The notes under the pieces were generated by a model. The model made no database searches, had not been told where the DNA came from, and saw only the letters and a list, made by a program, of their open reading frames with translations. DNA of 64,000 nt from Ruminococcus sp. (GTDB lineage: Bacteria > Bacillota > Clostridia > Oscillospirales > Ruminococcaceae), in the NCBI RefSeq assembly GCF_017549005.1, contig NZ_JAFYYT010000040.1, positions 62,001 to 126,000 of the forward strand, read 5' to 3'. Position 1 is the stretch's first letter; each line of letters starts with the position of its first letter. A program made the position numbers and the translations under genes. Shown one piece after another: positions 22,841 to 61,084 of this stretch.

Positions 22841-22869
22841 TTGACATTTTTGATTTGATATGCTATAAT
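22841..22869 (+). promoter_or_regulatory. Consensus sigma-A promoter for the TerB-N / BrxD / BrxHI operon
   Basis: Perfect TTGACA (22841-22846), 17-bp spacer, perfect TATAAT (22864-22869). The strength suggests constitutive expression of the module. Confidence 0.9.
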
Positions 22870-22885
22870 ATATAGTAAATCTTAT

Positions 22886-22906
22886 AAAAAGGGGGCGTGA
22901 ACGTGT
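22886..22906 (+). promoter_or_regulatory. G-rich ribosome binding site and double-GTG start, copy of 5532-5552
   Basis: Identical 21-base segment to that before the SEDS gene. GGGGG at 22891-22895 is 1 nt from GTG 22897 and 7 nt from GTG 22903, so 22903 is the favoured start. Confidence 0.7.
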
Positions 22907-24405
22907 CAGATAAAAAAGTAATACTCGATCAGGTTCTTTCGGACGAGAAGCTCATAAACAGTCTTGCTTTCAAGGACAGAGTATACAAGGACGAACCGAT
23001 AATCCGCACCGCTTCACAGCTGAAACCTCTCAGCACTCCCCGAAAGATAAAAGAAATGAAGGATATCATGTACTCCCCTGCGGCATACTGGAAAACCTCC
23101 GCATGGCTTTTCTATTCACAGGGCAAGTTCATGGAGGATTATGAGGACAGCTTCAGCTACAGCGAAGATTTTACGAAATATTATCCCTGTTACAGGGATC
23201 TTTCCGTTGAACAGCTCCGCGGATATTTTACCTGGCGAAAAAACGTCCGTCAGAATAAAATTGAAAAAGCGCCTCTCCCCTTTGTTTATATCTACATTTA
23301 CGAGCTTCTGAACTGTATCGGAGCCGAAACTCCCGAGGAAGGCTTCAAGCTTCTTAAGTATTTCAGCGACGAATATGCAAAGATCGATGATTCCATAAAA
23401 AAATACACAGAAAGCTGGCTTGTTGACTTTATAGTTTATTATGAGCTTTCTCCGGAGCTTGCAAATGATATGTCAGATATCAGGCACGATAAAGCGCTGC
23501 TGACTCTCATGCACTGGAACGAGCGTTCTGATGATCAGCTTTTTGAAGCTATATCCGAGCTATCGTCCTATCAATTCCAAAGATCTCTTTATTATGTTTC
23601 ATACCCTGATGAATTCAGGACAGTTCTTATAAGGAGCTTCATAAAAATATCTGAATTTTTCAGTGAAAAACGCAAGCTTCCGCTTTTTACAAAGCTCTTT
23701 GGCAATATAGTCGAATGCAGCCATAATATGTTCCAGTCAGCCGTATTTTACGACAGACAGTCTCTCCGGAGCTGCGAATATTCCCTCAGTGAAATACACA
23801 CTTATACCTGTAAAAACGGCAAATGGAGCTGTAGAAAAATATACGGAAACCGCAGCAGGAACGGCAGACTTGGCGACCTTGTAAAGGCAGTCGACAGCCT
23901 TTTGCGAAAAAAAAAGGATTTCAGACATAAGTTGTCATGTACCGATGTTTCAAAAACGACTTTGAAGCTCATACAAAACGTTATTGACGAGTATTATGAA
24001 GAACTTCACAGAAAAGAAGCAAGAAAAATAACTATTGATCTTTCAAAGCTGAGCGGAATACGTAGAGCGGCTGATATCACACGTGAAAAGCTTCTTGTGG
24101 ACGAAGAAGAAGCTCAAGATACAGTGTGTGCTGCTGAGGTTGAGAAAACTCACGAAATTGCTGATATTCCAGATAACGCTCCTCTTGAAGCCGATGAGAA
24201 AGAGTTCCTTATCGCTCTGCTTTACAATGGAGATATAGCAGCCGCTGCAAAAAAATGCGGCAAAATGCCGTCAATACTTGCAGATTCCATAAATGAAAAG
24301 ATGTTCGAGGTCTTTTCTGACAATATCATTGATTTTTCCGAAGATATACCTCAGCTTATCGAAGATTACACTGACGAACTCAAAGAAATGTTTCATAAGG
24401 AGTAA
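22903..24405 (+). CDS. TerB-N / TerB-C domain protein
   Basis: About 500 residues. The N-terminal half (about 55-190) matches the TerB-N pattern: KYYPCYRDLSVEQLRGYFTW, then PFVYIYIYELLNCIG and a helical Trp/Tyr-rich stretch. The C-terminus (about 425-500, FLIALLYNGDI ... EKMFEVFSDNIIDF) matches TerB-C. A charged, variable middle joins them. I see no nuclease or ATPase motif. TerB-type domains were first noted in tellurite-resistance proteins, and TerB-N/C proteins have been linked by comparative genomics to DNA processing. It begins a tight three-gene operon (3 bp, then 11 bp spacing) and probably acts as its adaptor or sensor. Confidence 0.82.
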   Translation: MSDKKVILDQVLSDEKLINSLAFKDRVYKDEPIIRTASQLKPLSTPRKIKEMKDIMYSPAAYWKTSAWLFYSQGKFMEDYEDSFSYSEDFTKYYPCYRDLSVEQLRGYFTWRKNVRQNKIEKAPLPFVYIYIYELLNCIGAETPEEGFKLLKYFSDEYAKIDDSIKKYTESWLVDFIVYYELSPELANDMSDIRHDKALLTLMHWNERSDDQLFEAISELSSYQFQRSLYYVSYPDEFRTVLIRSFIKISEFFSEKRKLPLFTKLFGNIVECSHNMFQSAVFYDRQSLRSCEYSLSEIHTYTCKNGKWSCRKIYGNRSRNGRLGDLVKAVDSLLRKKKDFRHKLSCTDVSKTTLKLIQNVIDEYYEELHRKEARKITIDLSKLSGIRRAADITREKLLVDEEEAQDTVCAAEVEKTHEIADIPDNAPLEADEKEFLIALLYNGDIAAAAKKCGKMPSILADSINEKMFEVFSDNIIDFSEDIPQLIEDYTDELKEMFHKE

Positions 24406-24408
24406 ATA

Positions 24409-25722
24409 ATGAAAATTCCCAAAAGAATCGCCTCTGCCGTTGTCAATTCACTGAAAGGCGGCGTTGTGCCCCGAACAGGTCTGCCATACATAACTGTCGG
24501 ACGTGAAACGGAAATAGACGCCCTCCTGCACGATGTTGACATAATAGCGGACGGCGGAGCTTCCTTCCGATTTATCGTCGGAAAATACGGAAGCGGTAAA
24601 AGCTTTCTGCTGCAAACTATAAGAAGCCATGTCATGGACAGGAATTTTGTCGTTGTTGACGCCGATCTTTCCCCCGAAAGGCGCTTACAGGGCACAAAAG
24701 GTCAGGGACTTGCCACATACAAGGAGCTTATACGGAATATGTCCACAAAGACACGTCCCGATGGAGGAGCACTTTCTCTTATACTCGACCGCTGGATAAG
24801 CAATATCCAGAGCGAAACTGCGGCAGAAACAGGGCTTTCCGCAGATACTGCCGAGTTCTCAAAGGCTGTTGAGAAGAAAATTTTTGAAGTCATCAATTCT
24901 CTGAATGAAATGGTACACGGCTTTGACTTCGCAAGACTTCTCACTATATATTACAATGCAGCAGTTAACGGAAACGACGAGGAAAAGACTAAGGTAATCA
25001 AGTGGTTCCGCGGTGAGTACAGCACAAAAACCGAGGCCAAAGCAGACCTCGGAGTTAATATTATCATCACTGACGATGACTGGTACGAATATATCAAGCT
25101 CTTTGCTATGTTTCTGAAAAAAGCAGACTATAACGGACTTCTTGTCCTCGTTGATGAGCTTGTTAACATCTACAAGATACCCAACAGTATCACACGTCAG
25201 TACAACTACGAAAAGATACTTACCATGTATAACGACACATTGCAGGGCAAAGCCAAGTATATAGGCATAATCATGGGCGGAACCCCACAGTGTATCGAAG
25301 ATACTCGCCGCGGAGTATACAGCTATGAAGCACTCAGGTCAAGACTTGCCGAGGGACGTTTCGGACGCGAGGGGCTGAAAGATATGCTTGCGCCTGTGAT
25401 ACACCTTTCGCCTCTGAATTACGAAGAAATGACAGTTCTCACGGAAAAGCTTGCCGATATACACTCACAGCTTTTTGACTATGAACAGAAAATAACTCAG
25501 GAAGATATGATAAACTTCATCAAGCTTGAATTCGGACGTATCGGCTCGGACAGCCATATCACTCCCCGTGAGGTGATACGTGATTTTATTGAATTGCTGG
25601 ATATTATATATCAGAATCCCGATATAAATATAAGTGAACTGATAGAATCCGACTCGCTAAGCTTCTCTGCTCCCCTGTCTGAAGCTTCTGCCGACGAGGA
25701 ATTTGCTGAATTTGAGATATAA
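24409..25722 (+). CDS. BrxD-like P-loop ATPase (DUF2791)
   Basis: This 437-residue ATPase looks like the DUF2791/BrxD family of type 2 BREX systems. The N-terminal segment has Walker A VGKYGSGKSFLLQ (about 58-70); Walker B is LLVLVDELVNIYK (about 244-256), and a sensor-like IGIIMGGTPQ follows. An Arg-rich stretch (EALRSRLAEGRFGREG) may hold the finger. AAGGAG inside the TerB-C gene end sets the start. The helicase follows 11 bp later, the pair order brxD-brxHI seen in type 2 BREX, but pglX, pglY, pglZ and pglW are not in the window. It may load or regulate the helicase (inference). Confidence 0.82.
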   Translation: MKIPKRIASAVVNSLKGGVVPRTGLPYITVGRETEIDALLHDVDIIADGGASFRFIVGKYGSGKSFLLQTIRSHVMDRNFVVVDADLSPERRLQGTKGQGLATYKELIRNMSTKTRPDGGALSLILDRWISNIQSETAAETGLSADTAEFSKAVEKKIFEVINSLNEMVHGFDFARLLTIYYNAAVNGNDEEKTKVIKWFRGEYSTKTEAKADLGVNIIITDDDWYEYIKLFAMFLKKADYNGLLVLVDELVNIYKIPNSITRQYNYEKILTMYNDTLQGKAKYIGIIMGGTPQCIEDTRRGVYSYEALRSRLAEGRFGREGLKDMLAPVIHLSPLNYEEMTVLTEKLADIHSQLFDYEQKITQEDMINFIKLEFGRIGSDSHITPREVIRDFIELLDIIYQNPDINISELIESDSLSFSAPLSEASADEEFAEFEI

Positions 25723-25733
25723 GGTACGTAATA

Positions 25734-27968
25734 ATGAGTATTTTTGATAGATATGCGCCTTTTATACAGGATTTCATTTACAGAAACAACTGGGAATCAC
25801 TGAGAGCAATACAGGCTGCGGCAGGCGACGCCATATTCAATACCGAGGATAATGTCCTCCTTACAGCATCTACCGCTTCCGGAAAGACAGAAGCTGCTTT
25901 CTTCCCGATACTTACCCTTTTTTCAGAGGATATGCCGCGTTCCGTCGGAGCTGTATATATTGGTCCGCTGAAAGCTCTGATAAACGACCAGTTCACGCGG
26001 CTCAACGAGCTCTGTGAAGAAGCCGGTATACCTGTATGGCACTGGCACGGCGATGTTGCACAGTCCCATAAAAACAAAATGCTAAAAAATCCCTCGGGGA
26101 TACTACAGATAACTCCCGAATCACTGGAGGCTATGCTTCTGAGAAAGCACGCTCTCGTCCCTAAGCTTTTCAGCGACCTGCGATTTATCGTTATCGACGA
26201 GATACACTCCCTTATGCGAGGCGACCGCGGCGGTCAGACTATATGTCTTATAGAAAGGCTCTGCAAAATGGCGGGAGCCGATCCGCGGAGGATAGGTCTT
26301 TCGGCTACCATAGGCGATCCTGAGGCTGCAGGAGAGTTCCTTTCCTACGGAACAAAAAGACGGACGTTTATACCAAAGATCGAGTCCAAAGGTGTTAAAT
26401 GGCGGCTCTCTATGGAACATTTCTACATTAGTCAGCAGAATCAGCCCGATGAGAAAAACGACGGAACTGCTCTTCCAGTGCTTGAAGAAAAGACTGACAC
26501 AGCTCCTCAGAACGCCGACGCAGGCATGGGCTATGTTTTTGAGCATACAAGAGGGAAAAAGTGCCTTGTTTTTGTCAATTCCCGTGAAGAATGTGAAGCT
26601 GTCACTACTACTCTCCGCTCATACTGTGAAGCAAAACATGAACCCGACCGATTTCTTATCCATCATGGAAATCTTTCTGCTGCTTACCGTGAAACTGCGG
26701 AAGAAGCGATGAAGGACGAAGATGTATACATGACCACCTGCACGACTGCCACTTTGGAGCTTGGAATAGACATAGGAAAGCTTGAACGCGCTTTCCAGGT
26801 CGATGCGCCGTTTACGGTATCATCTTTTCTCCAGAGAATGGGTCGCACAGGCAGACGTGATCTTCCGCCCGAAATGTGGTTTGTAATACGTGAAGAGCTC
26901 CCTGAGCCGCGTTCCATGCTGCCCGAGACTATACCGTGGAAACTCCTGCAAGGCATTGCCCTCATACAGGTCTATATCGAAGAACGCTGGGTCGAGCCGC
27001 CAAAGCTTGACAGGCTCCCCTACAGTCTCCTTTATCATCAGACTATGAGCACTCTGGCTTCATGCGGCGAGCTGACTGCCGCCGAGCTTGCTTCAAAGGT
27101 TCTTACACTGAAATATTTTCACCGTATCTCACAGGATGATTACAGGATTATGCTCCGGCATCTTCTTGAGATCGACCACATACAGCGCACTGAAGAGGGC
27201 GGACTTATCGTTGGCATAACAGGTGAAAGGATAATAAACAGTTTCAAATTCTATGCTGTATTTCAGGAAAACGAGGAATATACTGTCCGCTGGGGCTCCC
27301 AGGAGCTCGGAACGATAGTAATGCCTCCGCCGCCCGGCGAGAAAATTGCCATTGCCGGTCATGTTTGGATCGTTGAAGAAGTCGACCACAAGCGCCATCT
27401 CGTCTACTGTGAGCAGATAAAAGGAAAGGTCCCTGCATATTTCGGTGATTGCCCCGGAGATATAAACACTAAGATACTTCTTCGCATGAGAGATGTGCTT
27501 CGCGAAGAGAAAAGCTATCCATATCTGATGAAGAATGCTGTTGCAAGACTTGCACAGGCACGTCAGACTGCAAAAAATTCGGGAGTAACAGAGTCGCCGC
27601 TGATATGTCTCGGCGGAAATATGTGGTGTCTCCTTCCCTGGCTCGGAACTTATGCGTTTTTCGCAATGGAGCGTTTCATTAAGCTTAAATGTGCTGATAA
27701 GCTCGGCCTTAAAGGAATGGATTCCTGCCGTCCCTATTATATCCAGTTCACTATGAAAGCAGAGCCGTATGAGTTCTTTTCCGTTCTGGTTTCGGAAGCA
27801 AAAAAAGATATTGATCCGATGGAGCTCGTTTACGATAAGGAAGTTCCGCTTTTTGAGAAGTATGATGAGTTTCTTCCTCCAGAGCTTATAAGAAAGGGAT
27901 TTGCTTACGGGATACTTGGTATTACTGAAATGAAGGAACGTATTTTAAGCTGGGAAAAGATTATTTAA
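25734..27968 (+). CDS. BrxHI/Lhr-like superfamily 2 DNA helicase
   Basis: The 744-residue protein has the SF2 motor: motif I TASTASGKTEAA, Ia GPLKALINDQ, Ib TPESLEAML, DEAH-type motif II VIDEIHS, motif III LSATIGD, motif IV/V TTATLELGID and motif VI QRMGRTGRR. The C-terminal region has a winged-helix-like part (TMSTLASCGELTAAELASKV) and a beta-rich end, as in Lhr and BrxHI. It is shorter than Lhr (about 1500). No nuclease domain is visible. As the last gene of the TerB-N/BrxD operon it is the likely DNA-remodelling engine. All motor motifs appear intact. Confidence 0.9.
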   Translation: MSIFDRYAPFIQDFIYRNNWESLRAIQAAAGDAIFNTEDNVLLTASTASGKTEAAFFPILTLFSEDMPRSVGAVYIGPLKALINDQFTRLNELCEEAGIPVWHWHGDVAQSHKNKMLKNPSGILQITPESLEAMLLRKHALVPKLFSDLRFIVIDEIHSLMRGDRGGQTICLIERLCKMAGADPRRIGLSATIGDPEAAGEFLSYGTKRRTFIPKIESKGVKWRLSMEHFYISQQNQPDEKNDGTALPVLEEKTDTAPQNADAGMGYVFEHTRGKKCLVFVNSREECEAVTTTLRSYCEAKHEPDRFLIHHGNLSAAYRETAEEAMKDEDVYMTTCTTATLELGIDIGKLERAFQVDAPFTVSSFLQRMGRTGRRDLPPEMWFVIREELPEPRSMLPETIPWKLLQGIALIQVYIEERWVEPPKLDRLPYSLLYHQTMSTLASCGELTAAELASKVLTLKYFHRISQDDYRIMLRHLLEIDHIQRTEEGGLIVGITGERIINSFKFYAVFQENEEYTVRWGSQELGTIVMPPPPGEKIAIAGHVWIVEEVDHKRHLVYCEQIKGKVPAYFGDCPGDINTKILLRMRDVLREEKSYPYLMKNAVARLAQARQTAKNSGVTESPLICLGGNMWCLLPWLGTYAFFAMERFIKLKCADKLGLKGMDSCRPYYIQFTMKAEPYEFFSVLVSEAKKDIDPMELVYDKEVPLFEKYDEFLPPELIRKGFAYGILGITEMKERILSWEKII

Positions 27969-28059: not shown

Positions 28060-28998
28060 ATGAAAATACAACAGCTTGAATATGTCATTGCAGTAGCAAG
28101 AGAGGGCAGCATAACCAAAGCAGCTAAAAAACTGTATCAGGCTCAGCCTAATATCAGTATCGCCCTTAAGGAGCTCGAAACTTCTCTTGGAATACAGATT
28201 TTTAACCGTTCTCCCAACGGTATGATCCTCACCACCGAAGGTGAAGAGTTTCTCGCAAGAGCCCAGACTATAGTTGACGAAATGCAGAGTCTTGAACGTG
28301 ATTACGCTCATATTCCCGAAAATGAGCTCAAGCTCAAGGTCGCTTCAGCACGCTCCACATATGCAACAAACGCCATGGGAAAGCTTATAAGCGATTATTC
28401 TGAAAAGACAGATAAAATAGAAGTTCACATCATGGAAACCAGTACTGCCAAGGTAATGGAGGATATATGTGCAGGCAAGTATGATATCGGATTTATCCGT
28501 GTTCCAAGCACATATGCTGAAATGATCGAGAGTCGCCTTAAAGCAAGGAATCTTGTAGGCAAGACCATTATGGAGTTTCCTCTTCAGATCGTTATAAAAT
28601 CAGATCATCCGCTTGCAAAGTATGAGGATATCCCGTTTGAGCTTCTTTCACAGTATCCTGAGATAATCCATGGAGACGATGAGCCCGAAATGGTTAGGCG
28701 TGCTTCCATAAATCAGGATTACGATGAAAAAAGGTCCACTAAAAAGATATATATCTATGACAGAGGAACTCAGATAAGTATGCTGAAAACAGTCAAGGAC
28801 GCATATATGTGGGTAGCTCCGATGTCGCAGAGTATACTTCGCTATAATGACCTTGTGCTGAGGAAGTGCTCATACGCTAACAATCTTAACCGCGATATGA
28901 TAATCTATCGCAAGGCAAGCGAAAACAGTACTCTCATAACAGATTGTATCAGGACTGTTTATGAATACGCCGATATGATCGAAGGACTTGAAATATAA
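28060..28998 (+). CDS. LysR-family transcriptional regulator
   Basis: The 312-residue protein has the N-terminal winged HTH (residues 1-60, QQLEYVIAVAREGSITKAAK ... QPNISIALKELE) and a C-terminal two-lobed effector domain (about 90-300). It has its own promoter and terminator and no divergent target gene, which is unusual for LysR regulators. The downstream operon is on the other strand beyond a 290-bp gap. Effector and regulon are unknown; the upstream helicase trio could be a target but nothing in the sequence demonstrates this. Confidence 0.93.
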   Translation: MKIQQLEYVIAVAREGSITKAAKKLYQAQPNISIALKELETSLGIQIFNRSPNGMILTTEGEEFLARAQTIVDEMQSLERDYAHIPENELKLKVASARSTYATNAMGKLISDYSEKTDKIEVHIMETSTAKVMEDICAGKYDIGFIRVPSTYAEMIESRLKARNLVGKTIMEFPLQIVIKSDHPLAKYEDIPFELLSQYPEIIHGDDEPEMVRRASINQDYDEKRSTKKIYIYDRGTQISMLKTVKDAYMWVAPMSQSILRYNDLVLRKCSYANNLNRDMIIYRKASENSTLITDCIRTVYEYADMIEGLEI

Positions 28999-59962: not shown

Positions 59963-60994
59963 TTATTCACTTTGTTTTTTGTCTCTTTTGATCCCGATGA
60001 TATGTACTGCAAAAGTAACTCCCGCACCGAGAAGAAGAATGAGATAGAATGTAAGTCCCCGGCTTATAAGAAGCGCAGGCTTGACGAGTTCCATGCCGAA
60101 TATCTCTGTAAACGCAAGCAGGAAACAACCCTCGGATATTCCCGCCGCACCGGGAAGCGGAAGCATTTCAACCGCAACTCCTATCATAATCTGCAGCGTC
60201 AGTATATCAATAAATCTTGTGCTGCTCAGACCATATGATCTGTAAACTATCCATGTTACACTGAAAAGGCATATTCGCTGTACAGCTGTGATAAGAAAGA
60301 CATTGAACACAACCGAAAGATTGCGCTTGATATAATCGGCGCCCATAGCGTATGTATCGCATATCCTTATGAGCTTTTCCGTATATTTTTCCTTGTTTTT
60401 CCGTTTCATTATCCTGATCTTTGTAAGAAGATCGACAACCTTGATACCAAGAGCTCTAGCCCAAATGGGCTTTATAAAGATGAGCAGAAGCGCCGCGATA
60501 AATGAAAGATTAAGCACAAATCCAAGAACTATGAGCCATTTCATATCTCCTGCATACTGCGCGACAACGTCATGATTAAAGATAAGAAATCCCAGTGCCA
60601 TTAGCACAAGGACAGATTTATATGCAATCGTTATCAGTAGCATGATAAGCGTAGAATATCCTATCTTGATCTTGTCTTTTTTCATATGATACATCTGCAT
60701 TGGCTGACCGCCTGTTGAAGACGGAGTTATATAGCTGAAAAAGAAGCCGATAAACGAATATTTCAGACATTTCAGAAAGCTCGTTTTCTGATCGAGCACT
60801 CTTAGCATATAATGTATTATAGACGATTCACCTGCAACAAACAGTACAGCGGCACAGGCTCCGATGGCTATCCAGCCCGGATCAGCGCCTTTGAGGTCAT
60901 GAATGATCTCATGAAGCTCCTGCTCCTTGAAGATAAGATGAAGCGTAAAAAGTGTTATTACAAGAATAAGACCGATATTCAGCGCGTATTTCAT
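59963..60994 (-). CDS. UPF0104/AglD2-like membrane protein (lysyl-PG synthase flippase region)
   Basis: The 343-residue polytopic protein (about eight helices) matches the membrane half of MprF: SFIGFFFSYITPSSTGGQPMQM and VEMLPLPGAAGISEG, the two re-entrant family motifs. It lacks the catalytic C-domain; a separate DUF2156 gene at 53498 carries that fold. The longer frame to 61084 begins at the -35 box of the gene's own promoter and is rejected. GGGGG at 61014-61018 is 18 nt from ATG 60994 but 7 nt from an in-frame ATT at 61006, so the true start is uncertain. Confidence 0.87.
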   Translation of the reverse strand: MKYALNIGLILVITLFTLHLIFKEQELHEIIHDLKGADPGWIAIGACAAVLFVAGESSIIHYMLRVLDQKTSFLKCLKYSFIGFFFSYITPSSTGGQPMQMYHMKKDKIKIGYSTLIMLLITIAYKSVLVLMALGFLIFNHDVVAQYAGDMKWLIVLGFVLNLSFIAALLLIFIKPIWARALGIKVVDLLTKIRIMKRKNKEKYTEKLIRICDTYAMGADYIKRNLSVVFNVFLITAVQRICLFSVTWIVYRSYGLSSTRFIDILTLQIMIGVAVEMLPLPGAAGISEGCFLLAFTEIFGMELVKPALLISRGLTFYLILLLGAGVTFAVHIIGIKRDKKQSE

Positions 60995-61055
60995 TATTTT
61001 TTTAATAATGTCACCCCCGCGTGAAAAAGGCAAAAACGTATAGTTAGCAACTTTA

Positions 61056-61084
61056 ATTATATCATAATGCCCCTGTAATGTCAA
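61056..61084 (-). promoter_or_regulatory. Consensus promoter for the UPF0104 gene
   Basis: Minus strand perfect TTGACA (61079-61084), 17-bp spacer, perfect TATAAT (61056-61061). Confidence 0.88.

Follow-up and report, generated by a model that had tools for sequence, protein, structure and literature searches.

Shango, type 2 BREX and a Ruminococcus operon

Shango is an anti-phage system of three genes, arranged A-B-C, that encode a TerB-type protein (SngA), a BrxD-like ATPase (SngB) and a superfamily 2 (SF2) helicase (SngC) (Johnson et al. 2023, PMC10250203). An operon with the same three components in the same order occupies positions 22897 to 27968 of the stretch of DNA considered here, "the window", which comprises 64 kb (contig NZ_JAFYYT010000040.1) of a 3.33-Mb Ruminococcus assembly that is 94% complete. 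On profile scores the trio almost certainly belongs to the Shango family, and the operon is very likely a complete Shango anti-phage system, kept by selection, in a Ruminococcus akin to R. flavefaciens; R. flavefaciens strains and Ruminococcus or Clostridia metagenome-assembled genomes (MAGs) are the nearest named relatives among the matches listed. An anti-phage role of the trio in this host is probable to nearly the same degree.

When the TerB-like/ATPase/helicase trio of PA14 was cloned into PAO1, plating fell 10-100-fold, a modest reduction; many phages were affected, not all, and protection in liquid culture was generally strong (PMC10250203). Johnson and colleagues also cite an independent report from E. 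coli (Millman et al. 2022; PMC10250203). A paper on Hachiman groups SngC with BrxHI, DruE and DpdJ as a possibly separate clade of SF2 defence helicases (PMC12278908), and a rumen survey counts Shango among the DefenseFinder systems of rumen genomes (PMC13356809). A 2026 review lists the mechanism of Shango as unknown (PMC12926258), and no paper on it was found in the literature searched, most subscription papers being beyond reach.

The other point of reference is type 2 BREX (bacteriophage exclusion; Pgl), in which a homologous ATPase and helicase likewise lie side by side as the BrxD-BrxHI dyad (PMC12839542). BrxD is described as an AAA+ ATPase of the ORC/Cdc6 type with a possible role in loading or activating BrxHI, and BrxHI as a helicase with a winged helix, a beta-barrel and an Lhr-type C-terminal domain (PMC12839542).

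The three open reading frames (ORFs) of the window are co-directional on the forward strand (sngA, 22897-24405; sngB, 24409-25722; sngC, 25734-27968) and separated by 3 and 11 bp. Against the PADLOC profiles their products score 234 bits for SngA (residues 29-498), 642 bits for SngB (full length) and 921 bits for SngC, while the same sngB product reaches 163 bits against BrxD and the sngC product 412 bits against BrxHI. With the NCBIfam equivalog BREX_BrxD, SngB scores 164.5 bits, below the cut-off of 350. The operon is assigned to Shango because the Shango profiles clearly lead for each of the three genes, over BrxD for SngB and over BrxHI for SngC. Proteins of the SngA, SngB and SngC families are all present, and their genes lie together in the order A-B-C, which most relatives share. 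The central TerB domain (PF05099) was not found in the SngA of the window; this domain is not treated as defining for Shango, since a Paenibacillus SngA of 573 amino acids that lacks it still scores 360 bits against the SngA profile.

A sequence-only reading of the window had described three tightly spaced genes behind a perfect promoter, encoding a protein with TerB-N and TerB-C domains, an ATPase resembling BrxD and a BrxHI/Lhr-like helicase, and this description is borne out by the gaps, by the consensus TTGACA-N17-TATAAT at 22841-22869, by the Pfam domains and by intact motor motifs. The minimal defence module that it thought possible is indeed self-contained and probably defensive; it is not an unnamed one, being the described Shango (PADLOC; PMC10250203). 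The idea that the TerB protein replaces the BREX core survives as a family-level analogy only, SngB and SngC scoring far higher to Shango than to BrxD and BrxHI. What looked like a candidate new system is thus resolved as one already named and tested in other hosts. The chief point of interest in this copy is that SngA has diverged much more quickly than its two partners. New besides are the compact form of SngA and a promoter that often accompanies the operon; the chromosomal site is stable within a clade.

Co-occurrence of the three genes

A census of the trio, which the earlier reading had called for, excludes rare co-occurrence within the genus. The sample comprised 60 genomes, among them that of the window, which were taken from a larger group and are in part incomplete; it was searched for SngA at E up to 1e-3, SngB at 1e-10 and SngC at 1e-60. 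Each protein was found in 29 genomes, the identical 29 in every case, and none of them in the other 31; when only genomes with completeness of 90% or more and contamination of 5% or less are counted, the figure is 19 of 33 for each gene. The genes stay together even where they are no longer neighbours. SngC lies on a different contig from SngA-SngB in G005 and G031 (loci L048 and L052), as does SngA relative to SngB-SngC in G027 (L049), and since other genes adjoin in all three cases the operon is broken there, with all three genes retained. This retention in the genus is a usable fact about Shango. Some copies are damaged or partial. SngA is split in two in G045, and SngC of G030 has an internal TAG; contig ends truncate SngA in G006 and G016, and in G036 only ends of SngA are seen.

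In a phylum sample of 299 genomes (own included), SngB at E 1e-90 is present in 16. At the 15 loci other than the window's, SngC is adjacent in every case, an SngA-like protein lies upstream in 14, and the order is A-B-C in 14; the exception to this order, L175, has SngB itself in two pieces. A further set of "named loci" consists of the best 80 of more than 588 SngB matches and, being selected by SngB, is not an unbiased census. SngA is adjacent in all 70 of these with at least 1 kb of upstream DNA, and SngC in 68 of the 73 that have 1 kb or more downstream. Among the five exceptions, three have SngC about 1-2.6 kb further on, and in two none was found.

Relation to BREX

The sequence-only reading had noted that the BREX core is absent, and this holds to the extent that it was searched. 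There is no PglZ in the genome of the window (94% complete), and PglX, PglW and BrxC are not among the neighbouring ORFs scanned on both sides, no genome-wide profile search having been made for these three. PglZ occurs in five of the 60 genus genomes, of which three belong to the 29 trio-bearing ones (G031, G034 and G045) and two to the 31 others; it is on another contig than the trio in G031 and G045, and on the same contig at a distance of at least 1 Mb in G034. BREX core genes as the normal neighbours of the trio are therefore not supported. Outside the genus the check consists of ORF sizes and ten large ORFs only. Twenty-six ORFs of at least 750 amino acids lie outside the trio in 20 of the 80 named loci, and ten of the 26 were scanned with PADLOC; none matched a BREX component, nine giving nothing and one a weak match to SduA. 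This control is thin because at least three of the ten (L201, L216 and L255:3536-5998) run antisense over trio genes. The trio of the window thus differs from type 2 BREX in having SngA instead, in a genome that lacks PglZ and in its far lower scores to BrxD and BrxHI. A remnant of type 2 BREX was rejected as a candidate on the profile scores together with the absent or unlinked PglZ.

The SngB and SngC motors

SngB (24409-25722, forward strand; 437 amino acids) is a predicted P-loop ATPase of the BrxC/D family that matches Pfam BrxC_BrxD (PF10923) at 573 bits and retains its Walker A (GKYGSGKS) and Walker B (LVLVDE) motifs. SngC (25734-27968, forward strand; 744 amino acids) is a predicted SF2 helicase of the Lhr/BrxHI kind, with Pfam matches to DEAD (98 bits) and Helicase_C (61 bits) and intact motifs ASTASGKT, DEIH, SAT and QRMGRTGR, whose key residues are invariant across 27 aligned helicases. 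The structural model of SngC has a mean predicted local distance difference test (pLDDT) score of only 77; its top fold match is mycobacterial Lhr with single-stranded DNA (5v9x, E 4.7e-25, template-modelling (TM) score 0.68), followed by MrfA and archaeal Hjm/Hel308. The model shares the core fold of M. smegmatis Lhr at 18% sequence identity, SngC differing from Lhr also in belonging to a three-gene operon. As the earlier reading had stated, there is no nuclease: no such domain was found in SngA, SngB or SngC with Pfam, PADLOC or NCBIfam.

SngA, the variable component

The ORF of sngA opens with GTG at 22897, and its translation start is probably the GTG at 22903 (gene 22903-24405, forward strand), because the ATG of SngA in relatives falls at that codon, which follows AGGGGG at 22890-22895. 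Numbered from the ORF opening, the protein contains TerB_N at residues 42-227 (83 bits) and TerB_C at 365-496 (62 bits) in Pfam. No TerB core was detected between them at E 0.01 in any of 61 SngA proteins scanned (the window's and 60 from named loci), all of which have both TerB_N and TerB_C. The compact, core-less form is the rule among the relatives of the window, again a usable fact about Shango, and offers a smaller protein for structural work. The SngA of a Klebsiella plasmid, by comparison, has 769 amino acids and includes the core, against about 500 amino acids in the window, and profile comparison of the two gives a match in the TerB_N region only. The model of the window SngA (pLDDT 89.8, predicted TM score 0.68) is mainly helical, with a few strands at 271-315 and a poorly predicted linker at 403-425; the order of helices and short strands in its last part would fit a winged helix. 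The best fold matches, at E 0.36 and worse and not relied on, are to winged-helix domains of LysR type over about 70 columns, and by helix and strand order the part of SngA behind them is likely the TerB_C end. Two of the 61 SngA proteins show a YjbR match besides, and the SngA of L164:1096-5388 lies within an ORF of 1431 amino acids.

The three proteins have diverged unequally. Median pairwise identity within the genus is 48% for SngA (25 proteins) and 84% for both SngB (27) and SngC (24). At the 46 of the 80 named loci that have all three, a set selected by SngB and not by SngA or SngC, median identity to the window is 35% for SngA, 75% for SngB and 75% for SngC. Ratios of nonsynonymous to synonymous substitution (dN/dS), which are rough because dS approaches or exceeds 1 in several pairs, are 0.06-0.23 for SngA, 0.02-0.05 for SngB and 0.03-0.05 for SngC (7 of 11 pairs computable for all three). 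All three proteins are under purifying selection, with SngA the least constrained, and it is a further usable fact about Shango that SngA is the variable part and SngB-SngC the conserved pair. In L252 (named) and L165 (phylum) SngC is only 42-43% identical to that of the window beside an SngB at 71-76%, which suggests exchange of a single gene within the operon.

Site, descent and mobility

The site of the window operon is chromosomal and stable within its clade, whereas Johnson et al. describe a variable defence hotspot (PMC10250203). In 11 of the 29 trio-bearing genomes, the window's included, the trio lies between DUF308 and LysR/M18; for G009, G006 and G016 a single side is visible because the contig or the stretch ends, the block with LysR is inverted in G018, and in G044 the trio is about 3 kb from DUF308. 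In G049 the trio is inverted and about 5 kb from DUF308. Six of nine fetched trio-less loci (G019, G010, G051, G025, G014 and G002) show the empty site, with both flanks and at most 3.8 kb of other DNA between them, the right flank of the other three not being on the stretch. G039 and G030 have the flanks without the trio at this site and carry the trio elsewhere.

A tree of the transglutaminase-family neighbour was used to follow the site in the 35 genomes with that gene in hand, 21 with the trio and 14 without. Presence of the trio requires 8 changes on this tree, where labels shuffled at random need 11.2 and 11 of 500 shuffles were as low, and ten trio-bearing genomes, the window's among them, form one group. 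In the trees of SngB+SngC (23 genomes) and of SngA (25) most close pairs and triples recur, such as G049-G018, G043-G047 and G007-G037; G044 is placed differently in both, and a good many of the inner branches have weak support. Descent has thus been mainly vertical over recent divergences, apart from losses and relocations. Among more distant relatives, transfer between phyla is likely: SngB is 69-72% identical in records titled Desulfovibrio, Bacteroidales and Victivallales, although titles of MAGs may be wrong. In G018 the match to the transglutaminase-family neighbour is split in two (L038, 16106-18801).

Relatives of SngB (E 1e-20) are found on 685 plasmid records, 449 of them from Klebsiella and 144 from Salmonella, and 541 are predicted to be conjugative. 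Both of the plasmids that were read, one from Klebsiella and one from Paenibacillus, carry a complete Shango. On the Klebsiella stretch (L159, CP110754.1) it is flanked by two IS5-family transposase genes and lies beside silver/copper resistance genes. The SngB search gave no match among phage records and seven relatives, at most 43% identical, on viral contigs.

Possible mechanism and alternative explanations

By analogy with BrxD and BrxHI, a "loader-motor" mechanism may be offered tentatively, in a form that is rather less than an even prospect. SngB, an AAA+ ATPase resembling BrxD in its proposed role of loader, would load or gate SngC; SngC, as an Lhr-type DNA translocase, would act on phage DNA or replication intermediates; and SngA, the fast-evolving subunit, would recognise the invader or couple recognition to the motor. 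Translocation would then disrupt phage replication, the operon itself being without a nuclease; with no nuclease domain in the trio, damage would come about through translocation, displacement, blocked replication or host enzymes. It is conceivable, and held with the same reserve, that Shango and type 2 BREX share one such engine (SngB/BrxD with SngC/BrxHI), to which SngA would be an exchangeable, fast-evolving recognition or effector part that works here without a TerB core. If so, the lock-step conservation of SngB and SngC (75 and 75%) against that of SngA (35%) would mark a division of labour between engine and recognition.

Several observations weigh against a defensive Shango operating in this way. 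The mechanism rests on family analogy; no solved fold matched SngA at E 0.001, its sequence gave one chance-level match only among solved structures, and SngB gave none up to E 0.01. The core-less SngA of about 500 amino acids may differ in function from the Klebsiella form. Because the transglutaminase-family neighbour is equally divergent (genus median 50%), the fast evolution of SngA need not mean conflict. It is also unusual for a defence system to keep a stable place among housekeeping genes and to be inherited mainly vertically. No phage tests of a clostridial Shango were found in the literature searched, and even the effect of the PA14 system was modest, with some phages unaffected (PMC10250203).

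These same features of site and descent are what an explanation in terms of genome maintenance would draw on. The sequence-only reading had allowed for a DNA-repair module. In such a module SngB would load the Lhr-like helicase on host DNA that is damaged or stalled, SngA would regulate it, and phage effects would be secondary. The site amid housekeeping genes, trees that within the clade for the most part agree with the host and a composition free of clear anomaly would all suit such a chromosomal module, as would the best fold matches of SngC, Lhr and MrfA, which are repair-type helicases. The distribution speaks otherwise: the trio was not found in 31 of the 60 genus genomes, nor SngB (E 1e-90) in 283 of the 299 of the phylum; presence is patchy, with its 8 changes on 35 tips; and relatives of SngB are on 685 plasmid records. 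The Pseudomonas relative, moreover, has anti-phage activity (PMC10250203). With no positive evidence for repair here, this explanation is unlikely.

More improbable still are two readings that start from the names of the domains. That the operon serves a Ter-type stress or tellurite-related response is suggested by TerB_N and TerB_C in SngA; the TerB core is missing from all 61 window-type proteins scanned and no other Ter gene is among the neighbours scanned, so that very little probability attaches to it. Least credible of all is a reduced type 2 BREX in which only BrxD and BrxHI are left and an unrelated TerB gene happens to lie alongside. The two profiles do match, at 163 and 412 bits, and BrxD-BrxHI is a dyad of type 2 BREX (PMC12839542), but the Shango profiles score far higher, SngA lies beside these two genes in relatives throughout the phylum sample, and PglZ, in five of 60 genus genomes and three of 29 with the trio, is never near it. 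A Shango system engaged in defence remains the preferred reading.

Promoter and neighbouring genes

The sigma-70-type promoter ahead of sngA (TTGACA-N17-TATAAT, 22841-22869, forward strand) was identified as a pattern match and is conserved in many genus loci. The exact TTGACA/TATAAT pattern with a spacing of 15-19 occurs twice in the window against 0.06 expected, and none of 100 shuffles reached two. Among 25 genus loci (the window and 24 others), eight have the promoter with no mismatch and six with one, all at 17-bp spacing and 33-42 bp ahead of SngA; several of these 14 operons lie at other sites, and the promoter thus often travels with the operon. Six further loci show two or three mismatches, and in the remaining five (L034, L048, L049, L053 and L057) the best candidate is no better than in most shuffles.

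The earlier reading had put the trio in a housekeeping region with no visible island, and the neighbours scanned with Pfam are indeed of housekeeping type or of role unknown. To the left are DnaB, FtsH, topoisomerase subunits, the transglutaminase-family protein, a MoxR-type ATPase, a DUF58 match below cut-off and DUF308; to the right, LysR, an M18 aminopeptidase, dephospho-CoA kinase, Sua5, RF-1, phosphofructokinase and DNA polymerase III alpha. A foreign island was considered on composition and rejected, the guanine-plus-cytosine content of the three genes (0.41, 0.45 and 0.47) showing no clear anomaly against 0.436 for the window. The LysR gene (28060-28998) was likewise considered as a fourth Shango gene; it accompanies the trio in G018 and G049, but as G019, whose site is empty, has it there too and no LysR was seen next to most distant trios, it is judged to be a gene of the site. 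The second perfect TTGACA-17-TATAAT of the window, at 61056-61084 on the reverse strand, falls inside the 5' end of an ORF (59963-61084, reverse strand; LPG_synthase_TM), the real start of which is therefore probably further downstream.

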